The notes below the pieces were generated by a model. It did no database searches, was not told where the DNA came from, and worked only from the letters and a program-made list of their open reading frames with translations. Shown here piece by piece: positions 1,548 to 16,339 of a stretch of 22,441 nucleotides of DNA. The DNA comes from a virus. The number at the start of each line of letters is the position of its first letter. The first letter of the stretch is position 1. The translations under genes and the position numbers were made by a program. The stretch covers positions 1 to 22,441 of IMG/VR virus record IMGVR_UViG_3300032284_000410; one strand, written 5' to 3'.

Positions 1548-2273
1548 TTGGCATTACCTAAACTACAACATCCTACTTTTGAACTAAAGATTCCATCGTC
1601 AGGGAATAAGTATCTATTCAGACCATATACAGTCAAAGAACAAAAGATTCTTTTGACTGTTAAAGATTCAGAAGACGAGAACGAAGTCACTGATCTGTTG
1701 AACCAGTTAATTTCTTCTTGCTGTATGAGTAAAGACTGCAACCCCAAGAAACTGGCATATTTCGATATCGAATATATATTCCTCAAGCTACGAGCCAAAT
1801 CTGTGGGGGAAGTCGTCGATCTTTCGTACAAATGTAATAATACCGTAAACGATACGCCGTGTGGCACAACAAACAGCTTCCCGATTAATCTGGATAAAGT
1901 CGAGGTTGTGTTCGATAATAAGGACGCGAACACATTTGAAATTCAGGATGGTCTGACAGTCAAGATGAATTATCCTACTCTGTCTACAATGAACCTGGTG
2001 GAAAAGTACAACAAGACTAAAGACTTGGACAACCTCATTCAAGCCATTGTCAATTCGTTAGACTATATTTCCGACGATTCTGGTACATATGACACCTTTA
2101 CGCCGGAAGAAGCAACAGAGTTTATTACTGGACTGAATATCAATTCCTTCGAGAAGTTCTTGACGTTCTTTATTTCTTTGCCCAAGATCAAAGAAAAGAT
2201 TGAATTCAAATGCTCTAAGTGTGGGTATTCGGATGATATTTGGGTATCTGGGTTACTGGATTTTTTCGTATAG
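1548..2273 (+). CDS. 26: gp26-like baseplate hub / tail assembly chaperone-like protein
   Basis: A 241-residue protein starting at TTG, chosen because GGAG at 1536-1539 sits at good spacing and the resulting MALPKLQHPTFELKIPSSG N-terminus is the family signature of T4-type gp26 proteins. It continues with YLFRPYTVKEQKILL, a long helix, FDIEYIFLKLRAKSVGE and MNYPTLSTMNLVEKY. Cysteines occur as pairs (CCMSKDC; CNNTVNDTPC; CSKCG near the end), suggesting a small metal site. In T4, gp26 is needed for the baseplate hub. Its position immediately before a small ORF and a tape-measure-like gene also matches tail-assembly chaperones such as lambda gpG. It ends LLDFFV over a T TTT TTC slippery heptamer (2261-2267), so a longer frameshifted form is predicted. 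Confidence 0.75.
   Translation: MALPKLQHPTFELKIPSSGNKYLFRPYTVKEQKILLTVKDSEDENEVTDLLNQLISSCCMSKDCNPKKLAYFDIEYIFLKLRAKSVGEVVDLSYKCNNTVNDTPCGTTNSFPINLDKVEVVFDNKDANTFEIQDGLTVKMNYPTLSTMNLVEKYNKTKDLDNLIQAIVNSLDYISDDSGTYDTFTPEEATEFITGLNINSFEKFLTFFISLPKIKEKIEFKCSKCGYSDDIWVSGLLDFFV
2261..2267 (+). promoter_or_regulatory. Candidate -1 programmed ribosomal frameshift site (T TTT TTC)
   Basis: Read in the gp26-like frame the codons are GAT TTT TTC GTA TAG, so X XXY YYZ is satisfied exactly by T TTT TTC two codons before the stop. After a -1 slip decoding resumes at CGT (2267) and stays open to the stop at 2444-2446. It adds 59 residues and yields a product of about 299 residues that includes all of the gp51-like protein. 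I see no strong downstream hairpin. Confidence 0.55.
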
Positions 2274-2460: not shown

Positions 2461-4959
2461 ATGCCAAAAAGCAGCAAACAGTTTAGACAGCTAAAAGAAA
2501 GACAGGATAAGATCAACGAAAACCTGGCCATTGGTCTTGAAGATCTTGGATACAAAATATCTGCGCTCACAGACGTAATCGAAGATAAGAAATTCTCGAA
2601 GACGGAAAACAATTTAGCCAAAACTATTTCTGATTTAACTGACGCTTTGGTCGGTAAACAACTAAGCGAAACGTATAGAGCGAATGCAGAAAAGCTGGAA
2701 CGAATAGAACAAAATCGAGCGTTAGGTAAGAAAGAAGAACGCGAGAAGGAACAGGAAAAAGAAACTTCGTATGGCGAACAGGCGGGAGGATTCTTTTCTC
2801 AGGGAGAGTTCATAAAGGGTATTGCTGCAACTTTAGTTGGTGTTATCTCAGGAGAACCTGGTAGACAAAAAGAGAAATTAAAGCAAGAAGAAACTGAGAA
2901 GAAAGAAGCAGAAGCCAGGTCCGAAAAAAGAGAGCAAGAGCTAAGAAAAGATAACGAAAGAATAGAGAAGTTACTAACTAGATTAACTGTTTCCGTCGAA
3001 CACCAGGAAGCAACAGCTGAAGATCAAAAGTATGATCTTCGTGATACACTAGATAATATCTCCAACAAACAGACTCCGGTCGGGATGACCTCTACCGGAA
3101 AAGTACAAAAGGTAGAGGTTGTTAATTTTGATCAATTAAACGACAAATTGCAACTTCTTGGTCAAACAATTAATTCTGGGTCTAATAGTATACTCGGCGG
3201 TTTTGTAGAATCCCTGGGATCTAAACTCTTGAGCATGTTCTCGAAGGGTGGATCCATATGGACAATGTTAGAGGGGGCGTTTTCTAGTTCTCTTGGCGTA
3301 GGATTGGGCAGCGCACTGGCTGCCGTAGGAGTGACTGCACTGGCCTGGAAGATGTTGGAGAAAGCTCTCAACGACAGTCAAGTTGGTTATGACGAAAGAA
3401 GAAAAAAAGAACAAGAAGACGCAACTAGGGCTGCGCGAGCAAAAACATCGGTTAAAGGTAACGCCGCGAGACAAACAGTACAACAACAAGCACTACAGGC
3501 CTCGCAACTGTATGGAGAACAGGCCAATACAGCAGAATATGCAGACACACAAGCAGATTCCTTAGCTAAAACAAATAAAATTCTATCGGCGGCGTGGAGA
3601 GAAGAGGCCGATAGAAGAAGAACCGCTGTTACACCAACAAAAAGTCAGACGGAGACACCGTCACCGGAGATGGCGCATGGAACCGCTGTTACACCAACAA
3701 AAAGTCAGACGGAGACACCGTCACCGGAGATGGCGCATGCGCCTACTCTTATTCCAGGATCTATAGAGGAGGCAGAATATTGGGCCAAAAATCATCCGGA
3801 CGAAGAAAGTAGAACAGGCTGGGCGCGGGCTGTGGAACAACGAAAGGCGGACTTTGCTGCTGCTGATGAGACCCCCTCGGCCCCGATACAAGTTCCAGGT
3901 ACGTCAGGTACGTCCATAGACGTCGTAGAAAAAATAAGCCCCGCAGTTCCAACCGAACCTAAACCTATGACGACCCCGTCTAATAAAAAACAGAACAAAA
4001 AGAATACCCCGTCTAAGAAAAAAAAGAATTCGGCGCCCACAGTACAGGAAAACTTACAAACTTATGGTCCCGAATTCTTGAGGGGGATTAATGATTTAGC
4101 TGAGAAATATAATCTAGATTCGACAGATTTATTGGCTAACATGGCGGCCGAGAGCGGAATATCGCCGAGTATTAAAAATAAAACCGGAGGAGCAGTTGGA
4201 CTGATTCAATTCATGCCCAGCACGGCCAAAGATCTAGGAACTAGTTCTGAAGAATTAAGTAAGATGTCTGCAGTCGAACAACTCAAATATGTAGACAAAT
4301 ATTTTAAACAAGTCGGGTTAGATAAATCTGCCAAAGAAGCTAAGAGTAAAGGGAAAAAAGTAACAGCATCGACTTTATATAGTAAAGTATTTCTTCCTCT
4401 ATATGCTGATGCTCCCGAAGACACTGTACTTGGGAAAAAAGGATCGCCTGAATTATTGAAAGGCACCAAGTTAACTCTTGGTAAAATATATGAACAAAAC
4501 TCGTCACTGGACATTGATCATAATGACATTATCCAGAAGTTCGAACTTGGCTCTAAAATTGCATCGAAGAGAGGAGAAGTCGAACAAGCAATATCAGCTG
4601 TTGCAACTCCTCCCATGCTTGCGCAAGAAGCAGGGAACACAGGAGTAGAGGATTATGCTACTAGCGTACAGAAAATGGCAACAAAGGTACCACAAATAAT
4701 ATCTGCTCAACAGCCAACTGGCAAGCCAACTGGCACACCTACTCCTCCCATGCTTGCAATGACGGCTCCCACATCCGGATCAAGCATTTACTCCGCATCC
4801 AGGAACGCTCAACAAGGACCAGTAAGTCCTGTTATTGTCAATGCACCAACCACCAATAACAACACAAATATCTCATCGAACTCTGGGAAACCCAATACCA
4901 GTAAACCAGTAGCAGGAACCATTCCAAGAGACAAAACCCACTCATCCTTTATGGGTTAA
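2461..4959 (+). CDS. Tape-measure-like tail protein with lytic transglycosylase domain
   Basis: An 832-residue protein with AGGA at 2451-2454 before its ATG. Residues 1-240 are highly charged and predicted coiled coil (long K/E/R/Q stretches). Residues about 266-303 form a hydrophobic, glycine/alanine-rich segment (GVGLGSALAAVGVTALAW). Residues about 385-525 are a Pro/Thr/Ser/Lys-rich linker that includes a 20-residue tandem duplication. Residues about 531-690 are an SLT-type lysozyme-like domain with catalytic-type E564 in NMAAESGISP and GAVGLIQFMPSTAKDLG after it. The C-terminus (PVIVNAPTTNNNTN) resembles T4-type tail-length proteins. It directly follows the gp26/gp51-like pair, as tape measures follow their chaperones. 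Predicted roles are setting tail length and opening peptidoglycan during DNA entry. It could instead be a hub lysozyme. Its stop overlaps the convergent glycosyltransferase by four bases. Confidence 0.75.
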   Translation: MPKSSKQFRQLKERQDKINENLAIGLEDLGYKISALTDVIEDKKFSKTENNLAKTISDLTDALVGKQLSETYRANAEKLERIEQNRALGKKEEREKEQEKETSYGEQAGGFFSQGEFIKGIAATLVGVISGEPGRQKEKLKQEETEKKEAEARSEKREQELRKDNERIEKLLTRLTVSVEHQEATAEDQKYDLRDTLDNISNKQTPVGMTSTGKVQKVEVVNFDQLNDKLQLLGQTINSGSNSILGGFVESLGSKLLSMFSKGGSIWTMLEGAFSSSLGVGLGSALAAVGVTALAWKMLEKALNDSQVGYDERRKKEQEDATRAARAKTSVKGNAARQTVQQQALQASQLYGEQANTAEYADTQADSLAKTNKILSAAWREEADRRRTAVTPTKSQTETPSPEMAHGTAVTPTKSQTETPSPEMAHAPTLIPGSIEEAEYWAKNHPDEESRTGWARAVEQRKADFAAADETPSAPIQVPGTSGTSIDVVEKISPAVPTEPKPMTTPSNKKQNKKNTPSKKKKNSAPTVQENLQTYGPEFLRGINDLAEKYNLDSTDLLANMAAESGISPSIKNKTGGAVGLIQFMPSTAKDLGTSSEELSKMSAVEQLKYVDKYFKQVGLDKSAKEAKSKGKKVTASTLYSKVFLPLYADAPEDTVLGKKGSPELLKGTKLTLGKIYEQNSSLDIDHNDIIQKFELGSKIASKRGEVEQAISAVATPPMLAQEAGNTGVEDYATSVQKMATKVPQIISAQQPTGKPTGTPTPPMLAMTAPTSGSSIYSASRNAQQGPVSPVIVNAPTTNNNTNISSNSGKPNTSKPVAGTIPRDKTHSSFMG
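3620..3739 (+). repeat. 60-bp perfect tandem duplication inside the tape-measure-like gene
   Basis: Bases 3620-3679 and 3680-3739 are identical, two in-frame 60-bp units encoding TAVTPTKSQTETPSPEMAHG twice except for the last residue. Perfect identity at silent positions suggests a recent duplication in the flexible linker. Confidence 0.95.
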
Positions 4960-6278
4960 AAGAACGATTCAAGCGAGGAGGTAGCAAGTACCTTCTCCTT
5001 GAACCCAAAGTGTCCGGTCCACAATTCGTCGATTGTTTCCTTGACTTTCTTATCAGTCAAAGAACCTGCAGGGTTGGTATGGCCCTCTGCTAATTCAATA
5101 TATTGAGCAGCCACAACTTTTCTATTGAAGTTCTGTTCTACTAACTTGTAATTGTTTTCTACTATTCTAGTATACTCTTTGTCAGAAAGGCTCATGAATT
5201 TCTTGACACAAGAAGCAAACTCGTGGGGGGTTGCGTCCCAAGGAATCATCAAATAGTTCTCGTTGGGAGTCAGAAGTCCTGTTGTCCCCTGCTCGTTATC
5301 AGAAACACCTAGATTCCTAGCAATAGGCACAACACCCACCCGCATTGCATCGACGATGACCCGATTGAAATGCGACCCGTATGTCTTACTCCACGATGTA
5401 TCGATTAGGAACTTAGACTTAGCCAGAATAGTATCTCGAGTGGATTCAGAGATAAATCCGATATATTCCATACCAGAATTAATCGCGTTCTCCCAGATTC
5501 GCTTACCGATCATATCATCTGTGGCATACTTATCTGACTCAGGCGTGCAATAATACTCCGGCTTGCATTTATCAGTCGATGCCATATATGCGCGTTCAAT
5601 TCCATCACCCGCTACAATGACTTTGACTTCAGGCATATGTGGTACTGCAGCCACAAGATTATCGACGCGCTTCCATCTCTTGAATGTTTGTAATGAAAGG
5701 ATTTGATTCTCGCGTTTAGATTCAACCCGCTCGATATCCTTCTGAGGATTTACAATCAACATCCTAGGAATTTCCATTTGTTCAGCAGAGTTAAACGCAG
5801 ATGGATGAACACAAGCAAGCCCAGTGATATTACTCTTTAGGTTATAGATCCAAGGATAGAACTTCAGAAGGTTGCCATCGTGTACAATAACAATCTGCTT
5901 TGCTGTTACATTCTGGATCATCTTCACCCATTCGGTTGTGCCCTCAGTTTCTTTACACTTAAACCCGAAGATAGATTCCCAAATAACAAGATCGAAAGTA
6001 TTAGCCTTCTTTACAAATGTTTCAATATATTCAGAAGAAAGGAACGGTTGATACTGTGTGTACCAACCGTTGCCTTGATGGACGGGAATACCAGATCCTT
6101 CGCCTGTGTCATAATTGTCTAGAGTCTTCTCTTTCAAAGGAGAAACTTTCTTAGATGGCTTCAGGCAAACCAGCTCAACCGAATGACCAAGATCTTTGAA
6201 TCCTGCCATAAGTTGTTCTGTGTGATTGATAATGCCGCCATAATTATTAAAGTCGTGAGCAACAAATAAAACTTTCAT
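4956..6278 (-). CDS. GT-B fold glycosyltransferase (GT4-like), probable DNA-modification partner
   Basis: A 440-residue protein. The ATG at 6278 is chosen because the protein then begins MKVLFVAHDFNNYGGIINHT, the first Rossmann strand and glycine-rich turn of GT-B enzymes; the longer open frame upstream is non-homologous and lies inside the oxygenase gene. The second half carries ILSLQTFKRWKRVDNLVAA (193-212), VKVIVAGDGIE (218-228) and GSHFNRVIVDAMRVGVVPIA (301-320), the nucleotide-sugar-binding part of GT4-type enzymes. Start and upstream stop overlap as TAATG, so it is translationally coupled to the TET/JBP-type oxygenase. That pairing suggests it adds a sugar to the hydroxylated base. Cell-envelope or virion glycosylation is the alternative. 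The 3' end overlaps the convergent tail gene. Confidence 0.85.
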   Translation of the reverse strand: MKVLFVAHDFNNYGGIINHTEQLMAGFKDLGHSVELVCLKPSKKVSPLKEKTLDNYDTGEGSGIPVHQGNGWYTQYQPFLSSEYIETFVKKANTFDLVIWESIFGFKCKETEGTTEWVKMIQNVTAKQIVIVHDGNLLKFYPWIYNLKSNITGLACVHPSAFNSAEQMEIPRMLIVNPQKDIERVESKRENQILSLQTFKRWKRVDNLVAAVPHMPEVKVIVAGDGIERAYMASTDKCKPEYYCTPESDKYATDDMIGKRIWENAINSGMEYIGFISESTRDTILAKSKFLIDTSWSKTYGSHFNRVIVDAMRVGVVPIARNLGVSDNEQGTTGLLTPNENYLMIPWDATPHEFASCVKKFMSLSDKEYTRIVENNYKLVEQNFNRKVVAAQYIELAEGHTNPAGSLTDKKVKETIDELWTGHFGFKEKVLATSSLESFF

Positions 6279-7552
6279 TAGATATCCAACGCTCCAAAGG
6301 TTCCGATCTTCAGCTGATCGGCGTATTCGTGTAAGCCATTTTCCATTAGATAATCCCGCCATTCTGCAGTTTCCCACATACCAGCAGACACACCGTTCCA
6401 CTTGTCTCTCCACAACGGATGACTCTTATTTACGCGCCGATGTTCTACGAAGTTGTATCTTGCGTCTTCATAAGCCTTGGTCTTACAGTCTGCCATCTTC
6501 TCGCGCATATAACAGACAACGGAGATACGTTCGCCTTCTCCGCTGATTGGAGTGTTACCGTGGATCTCGTGAACATCCATCATAATCATATCACCAGGCT
6601 GTACATCTACAGCCGCACGGAACGCAGGGAAAACTAGATATGCGCCAGAATAAGGGATCCCATTAGAGACAACAGATAGATTCCCGAAACCAGTAGGGAG
6701 ATCGCCAGCGTCTCTATGTGCTGCAGTTCTATATGTCTTGTTAACTGTGATGGTAGTGTATACCGAATTACCGATTCTAAACTCTGGGTCCACCTTTGAA
6801 ACTTCTGCATTTTGATTTGCCCATCTTCCGGGAATTAACTCATGAAACTTCTCAGATACTTTCTCAATGAAAGGAATAGCGGCTTCAAACTTGTTGGAGT
6901 TATGAGAGCTGTAAGAAGTAGTCCTACAATAAGGTATACGAGGATAGCGGTCAAAATAACCCGCAATGCCAGAATTAACAGGATTAGCATAAGAAGTATC
7001 GGAGATCCAGTCATTTACTTTCTCAACTTCCTTTAGTCGTTCGGTGGATGGAAGATCTTTGACACGCATTGCCCATTCGTCGAACACGAAATCAGACGGT
7101 CGCTTCAACGCAAGCCAAACACTCCCTCTAGATCCAACTTCCTCTTTATTATCCCTATACTTCTCATATAGATCTACAATAGGATCATCGCTCGTCACAG
7201 TAGTCATAGAACCTGATAGAGCATCGATAACCTTTTCTTGCAAAGTCGTGACCCAATCGCGACCAGTCGACTTGTCAGTCCGGGGTCCTGCTGCGATGCC
7301 ACGATTCTGAGACTCGACAGCAGCATCGCGAAGACCGTCAAACCCAATCTTCTGTAGCTCAGGAGAGAACACATTCTTACGGAACTTAAGAAGAAGGTTG
7401 TGCTCTCCGTGTTTTTTGTCTAAGCCAGTGATTGGCTTATAGACATCGCAATCATAATTGATCAAGTGGTCGTAATGCGAATCATCTAGGAATGTTCCTA
7501 ACAAATGATCAGCAGGAACGGTCTTTTCAATGTAAATTACTTTTGGCTTCAT
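6278..7552 (-). CDS. TET/JBP-type 2-oxoglutarate/Fe(II) dioxygenase (predicted DNA base hydroxylase)
   Basis: A 424-residue protein whose catalytic region (about 255-355) reads TTITVNKTYRTAAHRDAGDL, GFGNLSVVSNGIPYSGAYLV, FPAFRAAVDVQPGD, MDVHEIHGNTPI and ERISVVCYMREKM. This matches the TET/JBP family, which hydroxylates the methyl group of thymine or 5-methylcytosine in DNA. Fe(II) ligands are H279, D281 and H331 (or H328), and the 2-oxoglutarate arginine is R342. Residues 1-200 and the C-terminal tail (WxxAEWRDYLMENGLHEYADQL) are not recognised and may bind DNA. It has no Shine-Dalgarno site. A TTGACT-17-TATAAT promoter places the predicted transcript start on its ATG. A glycosyltransferase follows with a one-base overlap. 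No cytosine C5-methyltransferase lies in the window, so the substrate (T or 5mC) is open. Family assignment is from motif memory. Confidence 0.8.
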   Translation of the reverse strand: MKPKVIYIEKTVPADHLLGTFLDDSHYDHLINYDCDVYKPITGLDKKHGEHNLLLKFRKNVFSPELQKIGFDGLRDAAVESQNRGIAAGPRTDKSTGRDWVTTLQEKVIDALSGSMTTVTSDDPIVDLYEKYRDNKEEVGSRGSVWLALKRPSDFVFDEWAMRVKDLPSTERLKEVEKVNDWISDTSYANPVNSGIAGYFDRYPRIPYCRTTSYSSHNSNKFEAAIPFIEKVSEKFHELIPGRWANQNAEVSKVDPEFRIGNSVYTTITVNKTYRTAAHRDAGDLPTGFGNLSVVSNGIPYSGAYLVFPAFRAAVDVQPGDMIMMDVHEIHGNTPISGEGERISVVCYMREKMADCKTKAYEDARYNFVEHRRVNKSHPLWRDKWNGVSAGMWETAEWRDYLMENGLHEYADQLKIGTFGALDI

Positions 7553-7558
7553 ACTTAT

Positions 7559-7587
7559 ATTATACCTTAATCGAATAAAATAGTCAA
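7559..7587 (-). promoter_or_regulatory. Sigma70-type promoter of the oxygenase-glycosyltransferase unit
   Basis: On the minus strand TTGACT (7587 to 7582), a 17-base spacer and a perfect TATAAT (7564 to 7559). With the last T at -7, +1 is 7552, the A of the oxygenase ATG, so a leaderless transcript is predicted. Confidence 0.8.
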
Positions 7588-10601: not shown

Positions 10602-10630
10602 ATTATACTATTAAACAAAGAAAGAGTCAA
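10602..10630 (-). promoter_or_regulatory. Sigma70-type promoter of uvsX
   Basis: TTGACT (10630 to 10625), 17-base spacer, TATAAT (10607 to 10602). The predicted +1 is 10595, giving a nine-base leader beginning AGGG. The -35 box lies within the last codons of the upstream polymerase gene (Leu-Asp-Ser). Confidence 0.8.
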
Positions 10631-13118
10631 GTGAAGACTTCTTTTCGTAGTTCCAACCAATCACCTCTAGAATAATATTAAGAGGATCTAAGAACGTCTT
10701 CTGAAACTGCTTGGAGTAATCAATAGATTCATGTAATCCAAATTCCTCGGGCAGTTCTGACGAGAACGAAATGATGTCTTCGTGAATCGAATTGGGCTTT
10801 TTGAGATATACGAACTTGATCTTCTCGCCTTCATGGATCTCGGTGTATGTATTCAAAAGATCTCGCTTGTTCAAATGATGATTATAAAGCAAAGAGCCTC
10901 TGACGTGAATGGGAGTTGCCTTCTTGTAGATATTAGTTCTATCTTTATATGTAGAAAGTCCATTTACTGAACGAGGAAACGCAATTTGTTCTACTGGCAA
11001 CTTTAGGAATTCTTGTTTGAAAGCCGCGACGTAATCAATCAGGTCGTCTTCCGACTTAGTCATAATGATCTTGATGGCTTCTTTAATCTTGGCGCGACAA
11101 GAACCAGGAGTCGAAGAACGAACAGCCTCGAGGCCCATGATCTTCAATTTAGGTTCTGAATAACGAACTCCTTCTACGTCATACACGTGTAACATATAAC
11201 GCTTCTTGGCCGTCCAGATTCCACGATCTGCAATCGATTCCCGCTTCATTGTCATCATATTACTATATGCGTTCATATAAGAAGCAAGTTCTCTATAAGA
11301 CCTATCAATGAACGGAGTAATCTGTTCTTTACAGATCTTATCAATTAGGTTGATGGTTTCTTCTTTAGTCTTGTTCTTCATGAACTTATTGACCAATCCA
11401 TCAAAGTCGATATAAACGGAATCTGTATCTACTGCAATAATGTAATCTTTATTAGTACCAAGCAGCTTGTTGAACCATTCGTTTAGCTTGCGTTCAATCC
11501 AACGAATAGACAACTGTCCAGACTTAGTTACTGCTTCCGCCAATCTAGAATCAAAGTATCTGAAGTATTCGTTGCCCATTGCACCATAGGCCGAGTTCAA
11601 ACAGATCTTCTTTGCCATTTGTAGGTTCTTATACTTAGAGATATTATTCTTATATACCTTGATCTTCTCTTGCGACCAATCTTTATGGTTGGCTTCCAGT
11701 TGCTTCTCTGTTTCAATCTGAGCAGCTTTGTATTGCTTACGTTGTTCGAACATCCAATGCATAAGCTCGGGAAGAAACCCTGGCTTATTTTTAGTGAACA
11801 TGTGCCCATTTGCACACAGGGCAACATCAGAAGGAATATCTACGGAGGATTTGTTATTCACCAGATCGTCGATGTTGAGAGATTTAAAACCATCGGTAAG
11901 TGTTTCCGGTGAGATATTATACTGTTGAATTAACATCGGATATAGAGAAGTTAAATCGAAACTTACAACCCAGTTATGGAACCCAAGAATGGGATCCTTT
12001 ACGAATGCTCCCTCGATAGAAGTCTTAACAGAATCCTTCCGGCTTGGGATTACAATCTTCTTCTTCAACAAATGATTGTAGATAATAACGTCCCACATTC
12101 GAACCTGAGAGAATACATCGTCAAAGTTTACCTTGGCATCATACGCCATAGTGATGGCTAGTTCTAACAACTTCAACTTGTCTTCTAGAATCATGACAAG
12201 AGCAATGTCGTGCGCATTATATTCAATGAACTTTTCCCAGTCGTTCTTGTATAGAAGATGTAGAGAACCGTACTCTGAATAGTCAACCTTCTTGACGCCT
12301 AACTCCGTGCTGGCAATATGATCTAGCTTGTATGATTCTTGATTAGTATACGTGAACTTCTTATATAGCTCAATGTAATCTAGAACTGCGATACCAAAGA
12401 TCTCATATGTAGATTGCCTCCTCCCCATGATCTCAATTTCTTTGGGCTTTAGAATACGCCAGGGAGATAAATATGATGCCTTCGTCTCAGAAAATAGCTT
12501 GTTAATACGATTAGTTAGATATGGAATATCAAAGAACTTTACGTTCCATCCTGTAATAATGTCAGGATAGTTCTCTTTCCAAGCTGCCATGAACTTCTCG
12601 AGAAGATCGTGTTCGCTCTCGCATTTGATATATTCGAACTCTTTGGTTAGTTTGAGGGGATTATACTCACCGCACCCGAATACTAGTTTGCGGTCTATAT
12701 TAGAGAACTTCAGAGCAATCGCATTGACTTCTTCGTTCGCTGTCGCGACATCAGGAAACCCGTTCTCGCAAGTGGTCTCAATATCGATGTAGGCAATTAT
12801 GATATTGTTGATATCCCACGCAACATCTTCTTTCCACTGTTGGGAGATATATTGATATTGTGCTTGGATATTTCCGTAGACCGCAAAGTTGTCTACGTCC
12901 TTGTTCGATTCAATGAAGTCGCGAGTATCTTTGATATCCCCTGCGTCGAATTGAACAACCGAGTGACCATGTAAAGTCTTGAAGCCTTCTTTGTCTACTC
13001 CCGGAATCCACACAGGAGGATGAAAGTCAGTGATCTCTTCTTTGTATCTTTCTTGACCCTCAGCAGCTCGGACGAACAACTTCTTACCATAGGACTGTAC
13101 GTTTGTATATTGGCTCAC
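10611..13118 (-). CDS. 43: Family B DNA polymerase, T4 gp43-like
   Basis: An 835-residue replicative polymerase with 3'-5' proofreading. ExoI is YIDIET (D112, E114), ExoII is GWNVKFFDIPYL and ExoIII is YNAHDIALV. Polymerase motif A is SFDLTSLYP (D388), motif B is KICLNSAYGAMGN and motif C is AVDTDSVYID (D564, D566). All catalytic residues are present. It is slightly shorter than T4 gp43 (898). The GTG at 13118 is chosen because the N-terminus MSQYTNVQSYGKKLFVR matches aquatic T4-like polymerases and no other start precedes it in frame. No Shine-Dalgarno site is present; a promoter places the transcript start on this GTG. UvsX follows after a 24-base gap that holds the uvsX -10 box. Confidence 0.97.
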   Translation of the reverse strand: MSQYTNVQSYGKKLFVRAAEGQERYKEEITDFHPPVWIPGVDKEGFKTLHGHSVVQFDAGDIKDTRDFIESNKDVDNFAVYGNIQAQYQYISQQWKEDVAWDINNIIIAYIDIETTCENGFPDVATANEEVNAIALKFSNIDRKLVFGCGEYNPLKLTKEFEYIKCESEHDLLEKFMAAWKENYPDIITGWNVKFFDIPYLTNRINKLFSETKASYLSPWRILKPKEIEIMGRRQSTYEIFGIAVLDYIELYKKFTYTNQESYKLDHIASTELGVKKVDYSEYGSLHLLYKNDWEKFIEYNAHDIALVMILEDKLKLLELAITMAYDAKVNFDDVFSQVRMWDVIIYNHLLKKKIVIPSRKDSVKTSIEGAFVKDPILGFHNWVVSFDLTSLYPMLIQQYNISPETLTDGFKSLNIDDLVNNKSSVDIPSDVALCANGHMFTKNKPGFLPELMHWMFEQRKQYKAAQIETEKQLEANHKDWSQEKIKVYKNNISKYKNLQMAKKICLNSAYGAMGNEYFRYFDSRLAEAVTKSGQLSIRWIERKLNEWFNKLLGTNKDYIIAVDTDSVYIDFDGLVNKFMKNKTKEETINLIDKICKEQITPFIDRSYRELASYMNAYSNMMTMKRESIADRGIWTAKKRYMLHVYDVEGVRYSEPKLKIMGLEAVRSSTPGSCRAKIKEAIKIIMTKSEDDLIDYVAAFKQEFLKLPVEQIAFPRSVNGLSTYKDRTNIYKKATPIHVRGSLLYNHHLNKRDLLNTYTEIHEGEKIKFVYLKKPNSIHEDIISFSSELPEEFGLHESIDYSKQFQKTFLDPLNIILEVIGWNYEKKSSLDSFFV

Positions 13119-15139: not shown

Positions 15140-15619
15140 TTACGTTGTTTTGATTTCAAACTTCTTTGGCTTCTTACTCTCAGGAAGAACTAGCTGTAGA
15201 CTAATGTCTAACATTCCGTTCTTGTAGCCGACGGTCTTTACTTCGACATATTCGCCGATTGTGACTACACGAGTAAACGATCGCTCAGCAATACCCTTAT
15301 GAGAATAAACGAACCCAAACGGAAGTTCCTTTGCTTTCATCTCACCCTTTACAATTAGTTTGCTATCCTTTACGGTAACATCTAAGTCTTCTGGCGAGAA
15401 TCCAGCAACGGCCATAGAAAGATTAAACTCGGTGGAGTCATCGTTCTTGGTAATGTTATATGGAGGGAAAGAACCGGACGCCTTGGCTTGTTCGTTCCAA
15501 TAAGCGGCGATTGTTCCAGTTGTGGTAGGAAAGTAGTCCCAGATAGTATTCGTATCCCAAAAGGGAGACTGAACACTAGTAGTATTTCCAGTTGTTGTTA
15601 CAATAGTTTTGTTGCTCAT
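15140..15619 (-). CDS. Small heat shock protein, Hsp20 family
   Basis: A 159-residue alpha-crystallin-type chaperone. The core runs from about residue 48: SFPPYNITKNDDSTEFNLSMAVAGFSPEDLDVTVKDSKLIVKGE, then HKGIAERSFTRVVTIGEYVEV, GMLDISLQLVLPE and KKPKKFEIKTT. The AxxGF, ERSFxR and GxLxI signatures are all present. Hsp20 genes are frequent in aquatic T4-like phages, where a role in scaffolding or folding late virion proteins has been suggested. AGGAG is at proper spacing to the ATG. A T4 late box and a UUCG hairpin precede it, giving a leader of about 50 bases, so late expression is likely. Confidence 0.92.
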   Translation of the reverse strand: MSNKTIVTTTGNTTSVQSPFWDTNTIWDYFPTTTGTIAAYWNEQAKASGSFPPYNITKNDDSTEFNLSMAVAGFSPEDLDVTVKDSKLIVKGEMKAKELPFGFVYSHKGIAERSFTRVVTIGEYVEVKTVGYKNGMLDISLQLVLPESKKPKKFEIKTT

Positions 15620-15689: not shown

Positions 15690-16112
15690 TTACTGATTCC
15701 CTGCGCTGCTAGCTGCATCCAGCGTTTCGTTGGGTCTGCCGCCAGTACCACTTACGGTGATGGATCTGGCATTGACTCTGTTAGAACCATTTTTTGCGAC
15801 CCAACCATCCACGTCGATTTGAGTCCCAATCTTTAGGGTGTCTCTGCGCCAACCTCCAGCTTGTAACCCATGAGGCGGACCGAGTTCCGCTCCCCAGTTA
15901 GTGATCTTGCCAGTAGAGTCTTTAGAGTTGAAATAGATCCAGACATGTGGATTGGTCCACTCTACCTTAGTCACTGTGCCATGTAGTTGAAGAGGCTTGT
16001 TGCGATCAAACTCGGCCGCGAAGGAGTGGTGTGCCTTCGCCGAAATTGCGAACAACATCACCAAGATAGCAGTCAGAATCGCTGAATAAATTAAATGTTT
16101 AAATCGTTCCAA
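15690..16112 (-). CDS. Secreted DUF6152-like protein
   Basis: A 140-residue protein from TTG 16112, chosen because AAGGAG (16125 to 16120) is seven bases upstream and the product then has a signal peptide, MERFKHLIYSAILTAILV followed by MLFAISAKA, before HHSFAAEFD. The mature domain (HHSFAAEFDRNKPLQLHGTV; KVEWTNPHVWIYF; NWGAELGPPHGLQAGGWRRD; IDVDGWVAKNGSNRVNARSI) matches DUF6152, small periplasmic OB-like proteins abundant in Acidobacteria and Proteobacteria. Function is unknown. Base composition in three 60-base lines I counted is 45-60% GC, against about 40% in a neighbouring line, consistent with recent transfer from a host. It lies 11 bases after a 71-residue gene in the same unit. Confidence 0.8.
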   Translation of the reverse strand: MERFKHLIYSAILTAILVMLFAISAKAHHSFAAEFDRNKPLQLHGTVTKVEWTNPHVWIYFNSKDSTGKITNWGAELGPPHGLQAGGWRRDTLKIGTQIDVDGWVAKNGSNRVNARSITVSGTGGRPNETLDAASSAGNQ

Positions 16113-16123
16113 TGTGTATCTCC

Positions 16124-16339
16124 TTATACATAAAACTTCATAAACTTCTTTGCTGTATTGATAATATCTTTCTCGGACGGATACGGAGGGAACACGGGAT
16201 ATTCTACTGTTAGGTTGCGATCGCATGCCGATTGATAATCAAAAGTCAACCTATCGCATTCTGCGTGCCATTTCCCAATTATATAATCCTTGGCGCAATC
16301 CAATATCGTCTGTTGCACTTCAAACTCAAACAATTCCAT
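16124..16339 (-). CDS. Small unknown protein
   Basis: A 71-residue protein starting MELFEFEVQQTILDCAKDYI, with AGGAG at normal spacing before the ATG. The sequence is acidic and aromatic with two cysteines (ILDC, SACD) and ends AKKFMKFYV. It has no signal peptide or membrane segment, and I do not recognise it. It is the first gene after a strong terminator and has a TATAAT-type promoter of its own. Its stop codon overlaps the ribosome-binding site of the secreted DUF6152 gene, so the two are probably co-expressed. Confidence 0.65.
   Translation of the reverse strand: MELFEFEVQQTILDCAKDYIIGKWHAECDRLTFDYQSACDRNLTVEYPVFPPYPSEKDIINTAKKFMKFYV

Follow-up and report, generated by a model that had tools for sequence, protein, structure and literature searches.

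The minus strand of a 22,441-base virus record (IMG/VR record IMGVR_UViG_3300032284_000410; hereafter the window), a fragment of its genome, encodes a TET/JBP-family oxygenase (TET) followed by a GT-B glycosyltransferase (GT). On the basis of their sequences and structural models, the two very probably constitute a DNA hypermodification pair. The fuller reading, to which a probability of about 0.55 is assigned, is that this pair is tethered to the sliding clamp and acts after replication, most likely on thymine, to give a base-J-like product; the base, the sugar, the clamp binding, the timing, and the protective role are all what we infer. The phage is T4-like, as the window contains Pfam matches for a gp43-type polymerase, UvsX, a DnaB-type helicase, and a T4 baseplate protein.

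In the proposed mechanism a single promoter would transcribe both genes, probably early in infection. In phage DNA, TET would hydroxylate a pyrimidine at its 5-methyl group, and the conversion would most likely be of thymine to 5-hydroxymethyluracil (5hmU); GT would then add a sugar from an activated donor to that hydroxyl, giving a glycosylated base resembling base J. Behind the fork, the C-terminal tail of the GT, and in most relatives also that of the TET, would attach the enzyme to the sliding clamp gp45, and new DNA would be decorated during its synthesis, presumably against host nucleases.

Identity of the two enzymes

An earlier note on this DNA, made without database searches, had proposed the oxygenase and the glycosyltransferase as overlapping ORFs (open reading frames). 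Both are present, TET at 7552-6278 (424 amino acids) and GT at 6278-4956 (440 amino acids), minus strand, and in the TAATG stop/start overlap (6276..6280, minus strand) they share one base at 6278. The former encodes a TET/JBP-type Fe(II)/2-oxoglutarate (2OG) dioxygenase, for which oxidation of a 5-methylpyrimidine in DNA is predicted. It matches Tet_JBP (PF12851) at 73 bits (cut-off 34.9; E 2e-20) and phrog_24024 at E 3e-140, with a catalytic domain spanning approximately residues 196-351. The iron triad H279/D281/H331 and the 2OG-binding arginine R342, all four named in the earlier note, are in place and their columns are invariant over 21 diverse relatives; D284 and R350 occupy base-recognition positions. 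Foldseek analysis of the AlphaFold model (mean pLDDT 80) ranked 26 TET-family chains before the first other enzyme, and re-alignment using VIA gave Z scores of 19.2 for TET2, 18.1 for NgTET1, 17.5 for CMD1, and 17.2 for CcTet, AlkB-type enzymes coming next at 13.2. Neither the hidden Markov model search nor the fold placed the protein with PhyH or the prolyl hydroxylases, the identities that had been raised beforehand as refuting; prolyl hydroxylases fall far below the TETs in the fold ranking, and this assignment was rejected.

A TET profile search of the PDB retrieved TET2, NgTET1, and CcTet, and phmmer with the window TET alone found no relative there. A single-sequence scan of viral contigs with TET gave no match; an alignment-based scan gave hundreds. 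No bacterial relative was found in a scan of genome contigs at the sensitivity used. TET orthologues are present in phages DLP6, Cr30, and C48C1. In GenBank those of DLP6, Cr30, S-CBWM1, and HTVC112P (L002, L003, L005, L006) are labeled "SNF2 DNA repair protein," and some actinophage TETs (phrog_6059) are labeled "queuine tRNA-ribosyltransferase"; both appear to be mis-annotations.

The GT-B assignment made in the earlier note is likewise upheld. The protein exceeds the cut-offs of PF00534 and PF13692, its AlphaFold model (pLDDT 83) adopts a GT-B fold, and it is best described as a GT4-like enzyme and predicted DNA glycosyltransferase. The best VIA match is the DNA-bound T4 alpha-glucosyltransferase (AGT; Z 24.3, root-mean-square deviation 3.9, 330 residues, 13% identity), in what amounts to a tie, several GT4 enzymes lying within 1 Z of it. 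This match backs the GT-B fold and allows a DNA acceptor without proving one. The window GT had no match to the AGT family PF11440 at E 0.1 and matched the phrog_2888 alpha-glucosyltransferase weakly (E 0.0018); PF20691 (TAGT) had no match in the window, and neither phmmer with the window GT alone nor a GT profile search retrieved a relative from the PDB. A 485-residue frame (4956-6413) was rejected as the GT because it starts within the TET gene and homology puts the true start at 6278. At residue S302 most relatives have E; decay was considered as the reason and set aside, since S is common to L107 and L108 and so looks lineage-specific.

Gene linkage and exchange of partners

The TET-GT pair is a conserved unit. 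A GT search of viral contigs yielded 60 related loci, with TET lying upstream of GT in 52. Six of the remaining eight end within or just before the GT, and L046 has 665 bases of upstream sequence without TET; L070 is a distant GT (34%) with neither TET nor clamp tail. All 33 loci in which both ORFs were taken as complete have a spacing of between -4 and +10 bases; in L024, where the TET start was set by hand, approximately 0.8 kb separates the genes. The coupling proposed in the earlier note thus has behind it both the one-base overlap and the upstream TET of these 52 loci, and a role in DNA hypermodification is supported by the family and fold of TET, the fold of GT, and their linkage. Downstream, many loci possess a GT-like phrog_1574 gene and then gp45 and the clamp loader. 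Close downstream of the pair in two loci (L053:7646-9010, L057:7461-8891) is a GmrSD_N (DUF262)-like gene, just below the Pfam cut-off; GmrSD enzymes of other systems attack glucosylated DNA.

Upstream of the window pair lies a predicted sigma-70-type promoter, TTGACT-17-TATAAT (7559..7587, minus strand; 11/12 in a consensus scan). A lone site of this kind is weak evidence, the window containing 15 against 7.4 expected by shuffling. The consensus promoter of the earlier note nevertheless finds parallels, in that a TTGACA/TATAAT-type element stands directly upstream of most TET orthologues inspected; its function as a promoter is predicted. The -10 box ends six bases before the TET ATG, and the spacing is equally short in L063 and L100, which suggests that the mRNA may be leaderless in all three. 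More distant TET relatives possess a normal Shine-Dalgarno leader.

A TET profile scan added 79 loci. In many of these GT is missing and, within the next few kb, there is either TAGT or the amino acid:DNA transferase ADDT, the latter frequently in company with a kinase-like gene. Those matches to ADDT and TAGT that were tested exceed the cut-off, the ADDT of L100 among them, and TAGT is found beside TET in L103-L105, L143, and L163. Even close relatives of the window TET (63-77% identical) have TAGT, or ADDT plus the kinase-like gene, in place of GT, and in its own seven-member clade the partner is GT4 in three cases, ADDT in two, and TAGT in two. A quick TET tree, several branches of which are weak, implies at least 14 changes among the three partner types.

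Other combinations were observed at these loci. The ADDT-type loci L100 (6272-7580), L142 (6972-7850), and L157 also contain genes for a class II glutamine amidotransferase and for GNAT- or amidoligase-like proteins, from which a larger decoration pathway is possibly to be read. In phage C48C1 (L004:11353-13385) TET is followed by an unknown protein of 344 amino acids and then a UDP-galactopyranose mutase, a possible sign of a galactofuranose donor. Phage P12024L (L007, 8595-9987) has TET, then TAGT and a DNA methyltransferase of the N6/N4 type, not C5.

Clamp-type C-terminal tails

T4 gp43, gp55, and gp33 bind gp45 via similar and interchangeable hydrophobic/acidic C-termini (PMC2988020); gp43 ends in ASLDFLFG, and gp55 has SLDFLYE. 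The gp43-like family B DNA polymerase of the window (10611..13118, minus strand; PF00136/PF03104), which served as the reference for the tail, ends in SSLDSFFV, and the GT ends in SSLESFF (4959..4979, minus strand), a predicted gp45 epitope by motif comparison. Ten related polymerases possess C-termini such as TLDSFFS, TLEDFFG, and TLEGFFS. Among the non-redundant proteins of related loci, the tail is present in 7/8 polymerases, in 32/41 TETs and 21/22 GTs, and, among the alternative partners, in 4/5 of the TAGT type and 9/20 ADDTs, with 22/386 (6%) of other ORFs also carrying it. It is absent from UvsX (0/14), gp41 (0/16), gp45 (0/18), and gp44, and from the dUTPase, kinase-like, amidotransferase, and phrog_1574 proteins of these loci. 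In a 197-kb relative the tail is found on five of 251 ORFs, three of which are the polymerase, TET, and GT; judging by internal positions, about one such ORF would be expected. Because the tails match the known gp45 epitope, we infer that the GT and most TETs, not including that of the window, bind gp45. T4 AGT also binds gp45 (Sommer 2004; PMC13216743). AGT itself ends in CFKEQFDIITK, without such a tail, and was rejected as the origin of the latter. A polymerase-like end, LLDFFV, also occurs on the T4_baseplate-type protein of the window (1548-2273), and in the 197-kb relative (G001, 111638-112393) an ORF of similar size ends in LNDFFT.

The candidate base and relation to known systems

The question of which base is modified turns on thymine and cytosine. 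Thymine would be the more economical substrate because it is always present in DNA and requires no methyltransferase. On cytosine, the same clamp-docked pair would act by TET oxidizing 5-methylcytosine (5mC), made by the host or by an unrecognised phage methyltransferase, and GT glycosylating the resulting 5-hydroxymethylcytosine. This is a reading with precedent, as phage TET activity on 5mC, in company with a C5-methyltransferase and glycosyltransferases, has been published (Burke 2021, as cited in PMC12730594 and PMC11404850), and the phage Melnitz, alone among the isolates tested, has a C5-methyltransferase (HhaI-like), which adjoins its distant TET. Against it, the PF00145 search bore out the earlier statement that the window has no C5-methyltransferase and found none in 38 related contigs (197, 168, 126, and 100 kb among them) nor in the complete genomes of the isolates DLP6, Cr30, and C48C1, which have members of the TET clade, nor in S-CBWM1. 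Of the 38 contigs, 37 gave no match to a thymidylate-synthase-type (dCMP-hydroxymethylase-type) hydroxymethylase (PF00303); the sole positive is the contig of L070, with no adjacent TET, and Cr30 has a gene of this type. Host methylation would probably yield sparse sites only, and close relatives couple the same TET with ADDT. In hypermodified-thymidine phages a kinase acts on 5hmU in DNA (PMC6449724), and actinophage cassettes of TET-like, ADDT/aGPT-Pplase2, and 5hmU kinase genes have been interpreted as thymidine hypermodification (PMC11955845). The lack of C5-methyltransferases in relatives and the exchange of GT for 5hmU-pathway genes thus favor thymine, which had been put forward earlier as a real alternative and has gained from both; we consider it somewhat the likelier base, and the cytosine version rather unlikely.

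Several observations weigh against the clamp-tethered, thymine-directed reading. The kinase-like genes match PF18751 weakly (E 0.004-0.007). D284 aligns with NgTET1 D234, a residue that reads the cytosine N4, and R350 with TET2 H1904 (TET2 has N1387/H1904); the former favors cytosine, and since the D284/R350 pair fits either base, the active site was not used to assign the substrate. The DNA of DLP6 is reported to be restriction resistant with a panel that includes enzymes with GC-only sites, and a block of these enzymes could point to cytosine; T-hypermodified DNA likewise resists some such enzymes, and this property was considered and not used as a discriminator. The 5mC could come from host methylation, the window is a 22-kb fragment of its genome, and we know of no virion-DNA chemistry for any phage with a TET-GT pair. 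Finally, the TET of the window ends in FGALDI, without the clamp tail. In its subclade the TET end has become ..LDI, and there GT may carry the docking alone.

Two further explanations separate the enzymes from one another. If TET and GT acted on different DNA targets, grouped as a general modification cassette in which, for example, GT does not use the TET product, then free swapping of partners would be unsurprising, as linkage alone is no proof of a substrate-product relation, and the additional GT-like phrog_1574 gene that often follows would fit as well. The overlap or abutment of TET and GT in most loci, and the fact that the recognized swapped-in partners are of the kinds expected to act on a 5-hydroxymethylpyrimidine, make this improbable. 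Still more improbable is that GT serves ordinary envelope or small-molecule glycosylation, with TET an orphan and the tails due to chance. The GT sequence does match generic GT families only, and in structure its scores with GT4 enzymes from other pathways are as high; the 52 linked loci and the tail counts speak against it, as do the GT-A-type partners (TAGT), which occupy the same slot and also have the tail.

The association of TET with a glycosyltransferase is already known in phages, and Pfam includes a "TET-Associated Glycosyltransferase" family. The cytosine pathway for which TET-associated hypermodification was shown biochemically (Burke et al. 2021, as cited in the two papers above) resembles the present system in having a TET/JBP enzyme and a glycosyltransferase gene; it differs in that no C5-methyltransferase was found in relatives of the window, whose partner is a GT4-like GT-B enzyme and not TAGT, and in that clamp tails occur here on GT and most TET relatives. 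TAGT has a GT-A fold (PMC13216743), unlike the window GT, yet takes the position next to TET in close relatives (L103-L105). The actinophage cassette (ParB-like, TET-like, ADDT/aGPT-Pplase2, 5hmU DNA kinase) is similar in that its TET is expected to make 5hmU in DNA, and the nearer kin of the window TET have related ADDT and kinase-like genes next to them; the window version would end in glycosylation, in a T4-like replisome setting and with a clamp tail. In kinetoplastids JBP1/JBP2 and the J-glucosyltransferase oxidize thymine in DNA and then glycosylate it to base J, whereas the window system is from a prokaryotic virus and its thymine substrate is predicted. T4 AGT shares the GT-B fold, a DNA acceptor, and gp45 binding, and is set apart by its 13% identity, by the missing PF11440 match and tail, and by T4 making hydroxymethylcytosine at the nucleotide level.

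No literature report was found of a GT4-type partner, of swapping at one locus, or of TET and partner proteins that bear clamp tails, the key papers having been covered via citing papers only. The clamp tails, the modular exchange of partners, the AGT fold match, and the known phage TET-glycosyltransferase pairs are additions to the earlier note. More tentatively, and at slightly less than even odds, many environmental T4-like phages may possess a counterpart of base J synthesis in which TET acts on thymine and a clamp-docked, swappable GT4, TAGT, or ADDT finishes the modification at the fork. If the proposed mechanism is true, T4-like phages would gain a second, post-replicative route to DNA hypermodification without the changes that T4 makes to the nucleotide pool, and viruses of bacteria a base-J-like pathway. 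The tails offer a direct, testable physical link from replication to base decoration, and because GT, TAGT, and ADDT replace one another behind a single TET clade, the question of the substrate can be answered. The enzymes are possibly useful as labeling tools for thymine or 5mC.

Elsewhere in the window are genes for an Hsp20 small heat-shock protein (15140-15619) and a DUF6152 protein (15690-16226), a notable cargo in a T4-like phage.

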